In this document: positions 22,740-29,452 of the stretch, piece by piece
Position numbering within the stretch: position 1 is the first letter of the stretch
Layout of the letters: every line of letters begins with the position of its first letter
Origin: Deltaproteobacteria bacterium
GTDB lineage: Bacteria > UBA10199 > DSSB01 > JACPFA01
Direction of reading: 5' to 3'
Assembly: GCA_016183235.1 (NCBI GenBank)
Contig: JACPFA010000030.1
Span: 1-34,218, forward strand
Length of the DNA: 34,218 bases
The notes under the pieces: generated by a model
What the model saw: the letters and a program-made list of their open reading frames with translations, nothing else
Told to the model about the DNA's origin: nothing
Databases searched by the model: none
Program-made: the position numbers and the translations under genes

Positions 22740-22920
22740 TGTCACCGTTTTTAAGGCAAAGCAAAGTCAGAAAATGAAGATGTGTAAAACGGCTAAAGGT
22801 TGCACGGCTTGGGGGGCAAAGGGGGATTTTACATCGATATTTTTGCTCATCGTCATTGGATAATAAATACTTTTATTAATGATTTCATAGGAGTATTGAA
22901 ATTTTACCCTTCCTCCGTCA

Positions 22921-22936
22921 TGGCACGAAGCTTGCT
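22921..22936 (+). promoter_or_regulatory. Sigma-54 (RpoN) promoter
   Basis: TGGCACGAAGCTTGCT matches the consensus TGGCACG-N4-TTGCW exactly, with GG (-24) and GC (-12) 10 bases apart. Start of transcription should be near 22947, giving a ~22-base leader with GGGAG before ATG 22969. Such promoters need an enhancer-binding activator. The TTCCTCCGTCAT motif lies immediately upstream (22909-22920). Confidence 0.85.
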
Positions 22937-22968
22937 TAAATAGAGGGGGAATTACTTTGGGAGTTTTT

Positions 22969-25908
22969 ATGGTTGATGGGGTTGGAGATGCAAAACAAAA
23001 GGCCATCTTGAGTTGTGAGCCTAATACTCAAGGCTTAGCCGCCGAGGCTGCAGGACAGGCTGAAATGCAAAATTTAGAGAGGGTAGTGACGGATCCCCAG
23101 TTTATCCCTGCCCAGGACATTTATGACTTTTTACAGTCAGGGACACTCCCTTTAAATCATCCTCTCTCCCTTCGTTCGCGGCAGTGGGGTGCTGTGAATC
23201 GACTGGTGGATAAGATCAAAAATCGCATTCCTCAAGAACTAGCCGAAAATCCAGCCGCTCGTAGTGAATATGAACGTGAACTAATCACCCAAATTTTAGC
23301 GGAGTTTTATTTTCCACGCTCTTTAGGGTTGGTCTATGATGCTCAGATGGAAACGGCATTGGATGCCACCCAGGCCCTAGAGCAACAGGCCGTGCAGTGT
23401 CGGGAGTTGAGTTACATCTTTGTAATTATGGCAAGGCAGGCGGGGTTGAATGCCTTTTTTATGGGGGTCGATCGCTACCAAGATGGCCGTACCCCTTACG
23501 AAATGGGCATGGGCCATATGCTAGCAGGCGTGTTGCTGAGCGATGGCACGGTATTGCAAGCAGACCCTACCGAAGAGTTTGTCAGCAGTGAGGTCATGCC
23601 CGGCCATTGTGAAGTGCATTTTGAAAGTGATCAGGAGGTAGCGAGTGATTATGTAGCTAGCAAGGCCTTTTTTGAGGATCTTAAAAGTAGAAGCGAAAAT
23701 GCCAATGAGTTTTATTATCGAGCGGCGATTCTCAACCCCGAGAATGGCATGGCCCGTTTAGGAAATTTGTATCACGCTAAATTTGATAGTGCAACAGAAG
23801 CTATCGGTTATTACCAAAACTTAGCTAATTATCTTCCCCATAACCCTGAAATTCAATTAGTGACGGGTCAGGTTTATGCACAATCTCAAGATGGCGACCA
23901 GGCCCTCTTTTATTTTCAACGTGCCATCGAATTATCAAAAGATGTGGTTTACGCCGAAGCCTATCTGTCTAGCATTGAGGTGTTGGAAGCAGCCATGCAA
24001 AAGTATAAGCCAATGCCTTTAAATTTATCTTTCGAAGAAAAGCAAAATCGTTGGGTGCAGTTACATTTAACCTTACTCAATTGCGAACCCTACAATGCCT
24101 ACGACGCCTATCTTTTGGAAAAGGCATCCCAATTGTTTCTAGAAACCTTGCAAAAAAATCGTGTTGAGCTGGGGGATAGTGATTATGAGCAAGAAGATCT
24201 CTTAAAACAGGCAGAAGATTTTGTTGCCCGGCATCGCATTGCTTTTGACCAATTGCCAAGTGTGGTCAAAGAATTAACAGAATTGGGTTATTACACTGAG
24301 GCCCTCAAGCTAACTGAGCGATTTTTGGGTTTGAACGGCTGGTTGCAGTTATGGCAAGCAGACGACAGAACGACTCTTAATATGGAGCTACTCCACGGAG
24401 AAATTCCCTATCTTAAGGGACTGAAGGCCCTTGCCAAAGAGAATTGGCAAAACTCTCCACATTGGGCAGAGATAACTCACCTATTTAGCCGGGTCATGGC
24501 TGACGAAGGCTACCCCGGTAGCGGCCATTTTACCCTGGCCGTTCGGTTTGCCAAGAGGCTTTTGTTGTTGGTCCCTAACGACATTGAGGCGCGCCAATTT
24601 TTGGCCTTGGCCTTTGCAATAAACCCCGAGTTACAGGAAGAAGGGGACACCTTCGATTTATCTGATAGTTCTACCCATCAACCCTTCTTGCAGGCGCTGG
24701 CCGTGCTTGAAGCCGATTCTTCTGAAATACGTCGTGCAAAATTATTGGAATTTTCAGATGGGCTAAGGGCCTTCTTAGAAGAAGAATCCCCAGATGGGCT
24801 TCAACGTATTTTCTATTTTTTAGAATATTATTTTTTAGAAAGACAAGACCTCGAATCTCTCAAAATACTTTTAAAGCTACGAGAAGATCTTAATATTCAG
24901 TTTGATCTAAACCGTTTTTTAACCGCAACCCATTATGAAAAAATGGGCGATTTACTCATGACCGATGCAGATCTCAAGGTAAAGACATGGGCCAGACGTT
25001 GTTATACCACGGCGGCTATGGCGCAAGAGAGTTTGTGGGCCGATGATCCTAAGGGCTTTGTTGCTAAGGTCGGTGAATTAGTGAGGGTAAAAAACGCCAG
25101 CCCCAAAGATAGTCAATGGATCGATCAAGATTTTATAACCCATTATCTCAATGCTCATTTTACAGTTGGGTTTAAATCAGTGACTTCTCCATCTTTGGAA
25201 CAAAGTTACCGGCGTGATCTTAGTCTTTTAAGTGGGCTCAACATGAAAAACTCCGAGCATTATCACAGGGCCCTGCAGGTCTTTGCCAATCGGCTCGTTA
25301 CCATAGCCATCTATCCCCCAGAGGCCTATGCGGGCTTGGATCCACTCGATGTATTGGGAAAAAAGGCGGTGGAATTATTAGAGGTGCTTGAAACCCGAAA
25401 GCGGTTTTTTGCCAAACATGGGTTAGCGGAAAATATTCGTGTTGAAGAAAGACAATTTCTATTTTTAGAATTGGTGTCGGAGGTGGTCAAACAGGGATAT
25501 TCTTTGCGTGAAATACAAACAGCCGTGCCCCTGGAATTTTGGGTAGCCCTTTCTCCGGTGGCAGCGGAAGCTGGTTTTGAAACAGAAGATTCCTTATTAG
25601 TTATTCAGGCAGCCTTGGCCTACCTCGACCTCTTTGCAGAAGACGGCCAAAGCACGGCTATTGCTATTCTCGAAAAATTGGCTAAAAAGTATTCGGGCAA
25701 GATGGATCAAACGGTTTTTTCTTTTGATGTAGATACGTTAGGTGATCACCCCTTTGGTCCGCTGGTCCCTTATTTCAAGGCATTCGAGAGCAAGCAAAGG
25801 CAAGCTCAAAGCGCCTATCAAATCGCCGAGAGCCTTGCGCGTGAGGCCAATCGCTCTGATTTGGCCCAGTCTTTTAGTCTTTTAGAAAATCGTCTAGAAA
25901 TGCCTTAA
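22969..25908 (+). CDS. Transglutaminase-like domain protein with TPR-like helical region
   Basis: The 979-residue protein has no signal or membrane segment and is probably cytoplasmic. Residues ~50-205 resemble the transglutaminase/SirB1-like fold. Helices lead to AVQCRELSYIFVIMARQAGL (C144), then GMGHMLAGVLLSDG (H183) and VLQADPTEE (D199), a plausible Cys-His-Asp triad in the right order and spacing. Next come TPR-like helix pairs, e.g. EFYYRAAILNPENGMARLG, NPEIQLVTGQVYAQ, DQALFYFQRAIELSKD. The remaining ~650 residues are helical with weaker repeats (e.g. RFAKRLLLLVPNDIEARQFLALAFA). TPRs usually hold partner proteins. Expression should depend on RpoN and an activator (promoter 22921-22936). 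ATG 22969 has GGGAG five bases upstream. The 3' end overlaps the convergent gene at 25874 by 35 bases. Peptidase, amidase or inactive scaffold are all possible. Confidence 0.75.
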   Translation: MVDGVGDAKQKAILSCEPNTQGLAAEAAGQAEMQNLERVVTDPQFIPAQDIYDFLQSGTLPLNHPLSLRSRQWGAVNRLVDKIKNRIPQELAENPAARSEYERELITQILAEFYFPRSLGLVYDAQMETALDATQALEQQAVQCRELSYIFVIMARQAGLNAFFMGVDRYQDGRTPYEMGMGHMLAGVLLSDGTVLQADPTEEFVSSEVMPGHCEVHFESDQEVASDYVASKAFFEDLKSRSENANEFYYRAAILNPENGMARLGNLYHAKFDSATEAIGYYQNLANYLPHNPEIQLVTGQVYAQSQDGDQALFYFQRAIELSKDVVYAEAYLSSIEVLEAAMQKYKPMPLNLSFEEKQNRWVQLHLTLLNCEPYNAYDAYLLEKASQLFLETLQKNRVELGDSDYEQEDLLKQAEDFVARHRIAFDQLPSVVKELTELGYYTEALKLTERFLGLNGWLQLWQADDRTTLNMELLHGEIPYLKGLKALAKENWQNSPHWAEITHLFSRVMADEGYPGSGHFTLAVRFAKRLLLLVPNDIEARQFLALAFAINPELQEEGDTFDLSDSSTHQPFLQALAVLEADSSEIRRAKLLEFSDGLRAFLEEESPDGLQRIFYFLEYYFLERQDLESLKILLKLREDLNIQFDLNRFLTATHYEKMGDLLMTDADLKVKTWARRCYTTAAMAQESLWADDPKGFVAKVGELVRVKNASPKDSQWIDQDFITHYLNAHFTVGFKSVTSPSLEQSYRRDLSLLSGLNMKNSEHYHRALQVFANRLVTIAIYPPEAYAGLDPLDVLGKKAVELLEVLETRKRFFAKHGLAENIRVEERQFLFLELVSEVVKQGYSLREIQTAVPLEFWVALSPVAAEAGFETEDSLLVIQAALAYLDLFAEDGQSTAIAILEKLAKKYSGKMDQTVFSFDVDTLGDHPFGPLVPYFKAFESKQRQAQSAYQIAESLAREANRSDLAQSFSLLENRLEMP

Positions 25909-26119
25909 TTTCTGGGTCTTGAGCCTCTAACTTTTTAACCACTTGGGTTTTGGGTGGGTTTTTTTCAGGCAATTCCCGGGTGCTTAGCCCCAAGAATTTT
26001 TGCAACAGGGCCTTGGGCCCTGGAAAAGAAGCGGGATCAGCGATGCCCTTGGCTTCGGGGGCTAAAGGCCTAGCCCTCGGTTTAAGCCAAAATTGTTTTA
26101 AACCTTCAAATAAGCTCAT
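25874..26119 (-). CDS. Small protein encoded directly after radA
   Basis: The 81-residue product begins with an amphipathic stretch MSLFEGLKQFWLKPRARP, has a Pro/Ala-rich middle and ends with an acidic helix PEIKAFLDDFLKD. No family recognised; no signal peptide. Its ATG lies one base after the radA stop (TAA then TATG), which strongly suggests translational coupling and supports a real gene. Its last 35 bases overlap the 3' end of the convergent transglutaminase/TPR gene, so the two transcripts are partly complementary. Confidence 0.6.
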   Translation of the reverse strand: MSLFEGLKQFWLKPRARPLAPEAKGIADPASFPGPKALLQKFLGLSTRELPEKNPPKTQVVKKLEAQDPEIKAFLDDFLKD

Positions 26120-29436: not shown

Positions 29437-29452
29437 TGCAATAGAGATGCCA
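29437..29452 (-). promoter_or_regulatory. Sigma-54 promoter of amtB-PII
   Basis: On the minus strand TGGCATCTCTATTGCA fits TGGCAC-N5-TTGCW with one change; GG and GC are 10 bases apart. Start of transcription near 29425 gives a ~110-base leader. NtrC with sigma-54 is the usual control of amtB-glnK in proteobacteria. No convincing NtrC site was identified by eye. Confidence 0.75.

Follow-up and report, generated by a model that had tools for sequence, protein, structure and literature searches.

The 979-residue protein encoded in the window (the whole 34,218-nt stretch of DNA that was analysed, which is one complete contig of a 2.6 Mb genome in 51 contigs) may be a conditional cytoplasmic Cys-His-Asp enzyme that acts on a protein chosen by its helical arm, and judging from the sequence we give this reading a probability of roughly 0.5. 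The protein is a member of a previously unlabelled family that is largely confined to the class UBA10199, in the candidate phylum of that name, and is built from known domain types. The coordinates of the gene, its predicted control elements and the parts of its product are collected in Table 1.

Table 1. Features of the transglutaminase-like/TPR gene and its borders, in window coordinates
Feature	Position	Strand	Evidence
Sigma-54 (RpoN) -24/-12 promoter, predicted, TGGCACGAAGCTTGCT	22921..22936	+	Exact consensus match
Likely Shine-Dalgarno sequence GGGAG	22959..22963	+	5 nt 5ʹ of ATG 22969; sequence reading
Gene of the 979-aa transglutaminase-like/TPR protein, ATG to stop	22969..25908	+	ORF, translation, family HMM E 7.5e-44
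N-terminal family-specific region, residues ~1-118	22969..23322	+	Alignment with relatives
Transglutaminase-like core, residues ~119-220, with C144, E146, H183, D199	23323..23628	+	PF01841, invariant columns, predicted topology
TPR repeats, residues ~242-330	23692..23958	+	Pfam TPR models and designed TPR proteins
Predicted all-helical arm, residues 346-979	24004..25905	+	Helices at low pLDDT
Terminator-like hairpin followed by a T-run	25939..25957	+	Consensus scan only

An in-frame stop lies 5ʹ of the reading frame at 22897, and an alternative start, TTG at 22957, is found four codons 5ʹ of the ATG. Both flanking genes are on the minus strand, which agrees with the statement of the earlier note that the gene stands alone with no partner on its own strand. 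Because of this flanking on both sides and of the terminator-like hairpin behind the stop codon, the gene looks monocistronic from its sequence context; terminator-like matches near the gene were no commoner than in shuffled sequences. The earlier note had also proposed a consensus-perfect RpoN promoter about 30 bases 5ʹ of the gene, and this was borne out: TGGCACGAAGCTTGCT fits TGGCACGNNNNTTGCW with zero mismatches and leaves a gap of 32 nt to the ATG. It was the sole match to TGGCACGNNNNTTGCW in the window even when one mismatch was allowed, a tolerance at which shuffled window sequences gave a mean of 0.34 matches. Genome-wide, the exact promoter motif occurred at 3 sites versus 0 in the reversed control, the broader motif TGGCACNNNNNTTGCW at 19 sites versus 0 in the reversed-pattern control, and TGGCATNNNNNTTGCW at 20 sites versus 2; the exact -24/-12 sites of both broader motifs thus numbered 39 in the whole genome versus 2 in the controls, and they were mostly intergenic. 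The sequence features of a sigma-54-dependent gene, that is, a -24/-12 element at the correct distance from the start, with rpoN and activators in the same genome, were all found here. Since the genome carries rpoN and ten strong sigma-54 activator genes, and in view of the 39 versus 2 enrichment, we regard the promoter call as sound, and the predicted promoter is very likely functional. The enhancer search upstream of the gene returned only an imperfect 14-nt inverted repeat (22866-22897), and no activator site could be named. Among the open-licence papers searched, none joins UBA10199 and sigma-54, and the titles on UBA10199 that came up deal with other subjects.

Other sites of the same kind were observed elsewhere in the genome. 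In the window, an exact sigma-54-type site, TGGCATCTCTATTGCA, lies on the minus strand at 29437-29452 and precedes amtB-glnK (29375-27538), where a site of this kind is to be expected under nitrogen control. Further sites precede a second ammonium transporter, gvpA, a response regulator, several lipoproteins and proteins without known function. With such sites before two ammonium-transporter genes of this genome, a nitrogen-limitation signal is possible for the window gene, and a link to nitrogen is suggested. The site before the GvpA-like gas vesicle protein gene (L002:1501-1516; G000:C33:39861) is one of the three exact occurrences of the promoter motif and lies 107 nt from that gene, with a sigma-54 activator gene (C33:35294) about 4 kb upstream of the site. 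Another one (L030/L077; G000:C42:166179) precedes a signal-less ORF of unknown kind which is truncated where its contig stops. TGGCACAAGAATTGCT was noticed in three identical copies (L022-L024; G000:C41:35927, 36247 and 37969) before toxin-antitoxin-like genes; they share the same 20 bases upstream, are probably a repeated element and perhaps are not sigma-54 promoters.

The protein was described in the earlier note as a transglutaminase-like domain joined to a very long TPR-like region. The domain was supported, and TPRs were found at residues ~243-330, the only place where repeats are recognisable from sequence; there the Pfam TPR models score just below their cut-offs and designed TPR proteins match with an E of 2.6e-22. 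The remaining ~630 residues are without sequence support and helical at low confidence only: residues 346-979 gave no match among 36 family members and no Pfam family above its cut-off. For the core, PF01841 (Transglut_core) is the Pfam family that matches most members; it matches 7 of the 12 family members that were aligned, with a best E of 6.8e-8, and the trimmed region of the window protein with an E of 6.8e-4. The scores of the window protein (17.4 bits at full length, 20.3 trimmed, 21.7 in the search of its own genome) are all below the curated cut-off of 23, which one relative, L132, exceeds with 26.3 bits. The N-terminal region is divergent in the window protein, and the corresponding part of the family profile was matched only inside class UBA10199. 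No signal peptide, membrane segment or export motif was found in the window protein. PADLOC gave no match for it either, and membership in a defence system was therefore rejected.

The numbering of the proposed catalytic residues, C144, H183 and D199, was correct, and they follow each other in the proper Cys-His-Asp order. The 12-member alignment shows no variation at E146, A158, H183 and D199 and very little at C144, G159, L160 and G187; at C144 the sole exception is a Ser in L068. When all 37 sequences (including that of the window) were considered, 27 keep Cys, His and the acid, which is Glu in one of them, seven are degraded and three are unalignable over the whole core, so that 27 of the 34 members which could be aligned, from many families of the class, retain the triad named in the earlier note. 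The losses, which are few and come from members whose alignment is uncertain, concern L068 (Ser for Cys), the L115 pair (Pro), L116 and the upstream genes of the L111, L112 and L113 pairs; all of these relatives retain the family architecture.

The full-length AlphaFold2 model, calculated from six sequences, had a mean pLDDT of 48 and was too poor to be read beyond secondary structure. The trimmed model (residues 81-328) reached a mean pLDDT of 68.5 and contained the same core elements. Both predictions, of low to moderate confidence, place a helix at 144-157 and strands at 161-166, 184-189 and 195-198, which is the transglutaminase order, with C144 beginning the helix, H183 just before strand 184-189 and D199 just after strand 195-198. 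In the trimmed model, block pLDDT values were ~61-81 for the Cys helix and its surroundings and 70-76 near the His and Asp, and the TPR region was the most confident part. Fold searches with the predicted models put TPR proteins on top, not transglutaminases, and the matches of the full-length model (SKI3, Naa15, OGT and similar) were set aside as generic helical-repeat matches. As the fold searches were dominated by TPRs, the transglutaminase assignment is based on Pfam, conservation and the order of secondary-structure elements.

With the window protein alone as a query, one relative covering both domains was found in its own order (G006; BLASTP E 4e-8); it is lipoprotein-like, 545 aa long, and has TPRs after the same core. 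A scan of the genome contigs with the window sequence alone gave no relative. A two-sequence profile found more relatives. The 12-member profile, from which the TPRs were left out, detected ~50 loci in 32 of the 46 class genomes at an E of 0.01 and hits in 29 of 46 at 1e-6, a threshold at which 8 of 339 genomes outside the class were matched, in every case by the generic transglutaminase portion of the profile. The window protein matches positions 23-262 of this profile with the E value given in Table 1, which is not independent, the window sequence being one of its 12 rows; the BLASTP match to G006, obtained with the window protein alone, serves as an independent check. Relatives are labelled as 'Deltaproteobacteria' MAGs, one of which is named HKST-UBA10199, and from this label and from kinship we assign the window to GTDB class UBA10199. 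The common plan is an N-terminal region peculiar to the family, a low-scoring Transglut_core and then TPRs; member lengths range from 266 to 1088 aa, some being cut by contig ends or having uncertain starts. The suggestion that the protein is something undescribed is reasonable, because the family is largely limited to one class and is named by no library used, its parts being known domain types.

The family is diverse and often multicopy, and its C-terminal arms are variable. Members are mostly without a signal peptide; lipoprotein-like N-termini were found in L076, L115 (two) and L116, all from the order of the window protein, which indicates that part of the family crosses the inner membrane. 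Three co-directional pairs of family genes with overlapping ends (L111:2919-7183, L112:3264-7200 and L113:3464-7242) were found, each pair in a different family of the class, and in all three triad residues are lost from the upstream copy but not from the downstream copy. Both genes are intact in the non-overlapping L110 pair, and both are degraded in the L115 pair. Among the neighbours of family members examined, there was no conserved gene that would name a substrate, and the only conservation was synteny inside a single family of the same order, together with a kinase/HTH pair near two members. In that pair, Ser/Thr-kinase-like genes that are 61% identical (L113:7372-10434 and L073:3725-5001) adjoin the two members, and related HTH regulator genes lie near both.

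Although rpoN is present in 44 of the 46 class genomes, none of 36 relatives had a sigma-54 site with up to one mismatch in the 250 nt upstream, where start-codon errors may hide some sites, and sigma-54 control as a family trait was rejected. The window gene is the only one of the 37 family sequences with such a site. The use of sigma-54 control as a clue to the role of the protein, as in the earlier note, was therefore not supported, and 'activator-dependent' describes how the window gene is run rather than what the family does.

The likeness to the PF01841 superfamily lies in the Cys-His-Asp triad, the order of helix and strands and the position of the Cys at the helix start, whereas the window protein differs by its score below the cut-off, its class-specific N-terminal region and its TPR/helical arm. 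SirB1 proteins (Transglut_core2, PF13369) resemble it in having a transglutaminase-like domain followed by TPRs and no signal peptide; however, they are ~270 aa long according to the earlier note, and the window protein, with its 979 aa, has a different N-terminal region. PF13369 was not listed for it at E values up to 10, by which SirB1 membership was rejected and the distinction already drawn from this type was upheld. The same genome encodes, at C3, another protein that matches PF01841 strongly and is membrane-bound, and a profile comparison with the standard transglutaminase of this genome was weak (E 0.022). Closest are the other members of the UBA10199 family (e.g. L130, PCXA01000007.1; L133, isolate HKST-UBA10199), which share the N-terminal region, triad and TPRs; the window protein is set apart from them by its long arm, for which no relatives were detected, by the divergence of its N-terminus and by the sigma-54 site.

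In the reading that we prefer, the protein would be a cytoplasmic enzyme of the papain/transglutaminase fold, probably catalytically competent, with Cys144 as nucleophile, His183 as base and Asp199 orienting the His. The C-terminal TPR/helical solenoid would bind a protein partner and present it to the active site, where the likely reaction would be hydrolysis or acyl transfer at a protein amide bond. The sequence does not discriminate between a peptidase, a deamidase and a cross-linker. Synthesis of the protein would be confined to conditions in which a sigma-54 activator is active, nitrogen limitation being a possible one. Its activity, substrate, partner binding and inducing signal are what we infer from these features. 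Counting against this reading are the PF01841 score under the cut-off, the weak profile comparison, the triad losses in relatives, the modest confidence of the models with TPR proteins heading the fold searches, the lack of the sigma-54 site in relatives and the lack of a conserved neighbour that would point to a substrate.

The main rival is a scaffold or pseudoenzyme, in which the transglutaminase fold would serve as a binding module and partners would be held on the helical arm with no catalysis. The seven relatives without the full triad indicate that part of the family does something for which catalysis is not needed, the bulk of the window protein consists of TPRs and predicted helices, and the wider papain-like superfamily has catalytically inactive members (PMC10318531); however, the full triad of the window protein and the near-invariant Glu, Ala and Gly around it speak against a scaffold, which we hold to be unlikely but the most serious competitor. 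A true Gln-Lys transglutaminase that cross-links and remodels an intracellular structure appears considerably less probable. The transglutaminase superfamily includes many hydrolases, and the window domain scores below the PF01841 cut-off, both of which count against a cross-linker. In its favour, the triad is present, and a bacterial protein of the same superfamily and with the same triad, TgpA of Pseudomonas aeruginosa (PA2873), has proven transglutaminase activity (PMC3507681); TgpA, however, is a membrane protein whose catalytic domain lies in the periplasm, whereas the window protein is without an export signal.

The two remaining alternatives bear on where the protein acts and on how it is expressed. 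Export from the cytoplasm by a route that needs no classical signal peptide would fit a diverse, often multicopy family with variable arms and four same-order relatives with lipoprotein-like N-termini, but as no export motif was found in the window protein and no secretion locus adjoins the members examined, we consider it the least probable of all. It is also improbable, if slightly less so, that the sigma-54 motif is coincidental and that a different promoter drives the gene. All 36 relatives examined are without the site, and at least one exact genomic site is a chance match, since L018:1501-1516 is where the coding sequence of rpoN begins; against this stand the perfect match in the right orientation 32 nt before the start codon and the mostly intergenic genome-wide enrichment.

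For the family as a whole, we tentatively picture, as an idea that is itself rather unlikely to be right in full, a class-specific intracellular system of enzymes and pseudoenzymes, some of them sharing an operon with a degraded sister, whose fast-evolving arms would pick targets to process or cross-link; the window gene would be its lone, long-armed and sigma-54-driven version. The family, which some 30 of the 46 genomes of an uncultured class possess and which domain libraries barely register, has now been given boundaries. The intact/degraded pairs yield a testable prediction, namely an enzyme-pseudoenzyme partnership, and, because the window gene is tied to a defined regulatory system, the condition that induces it could be sought.
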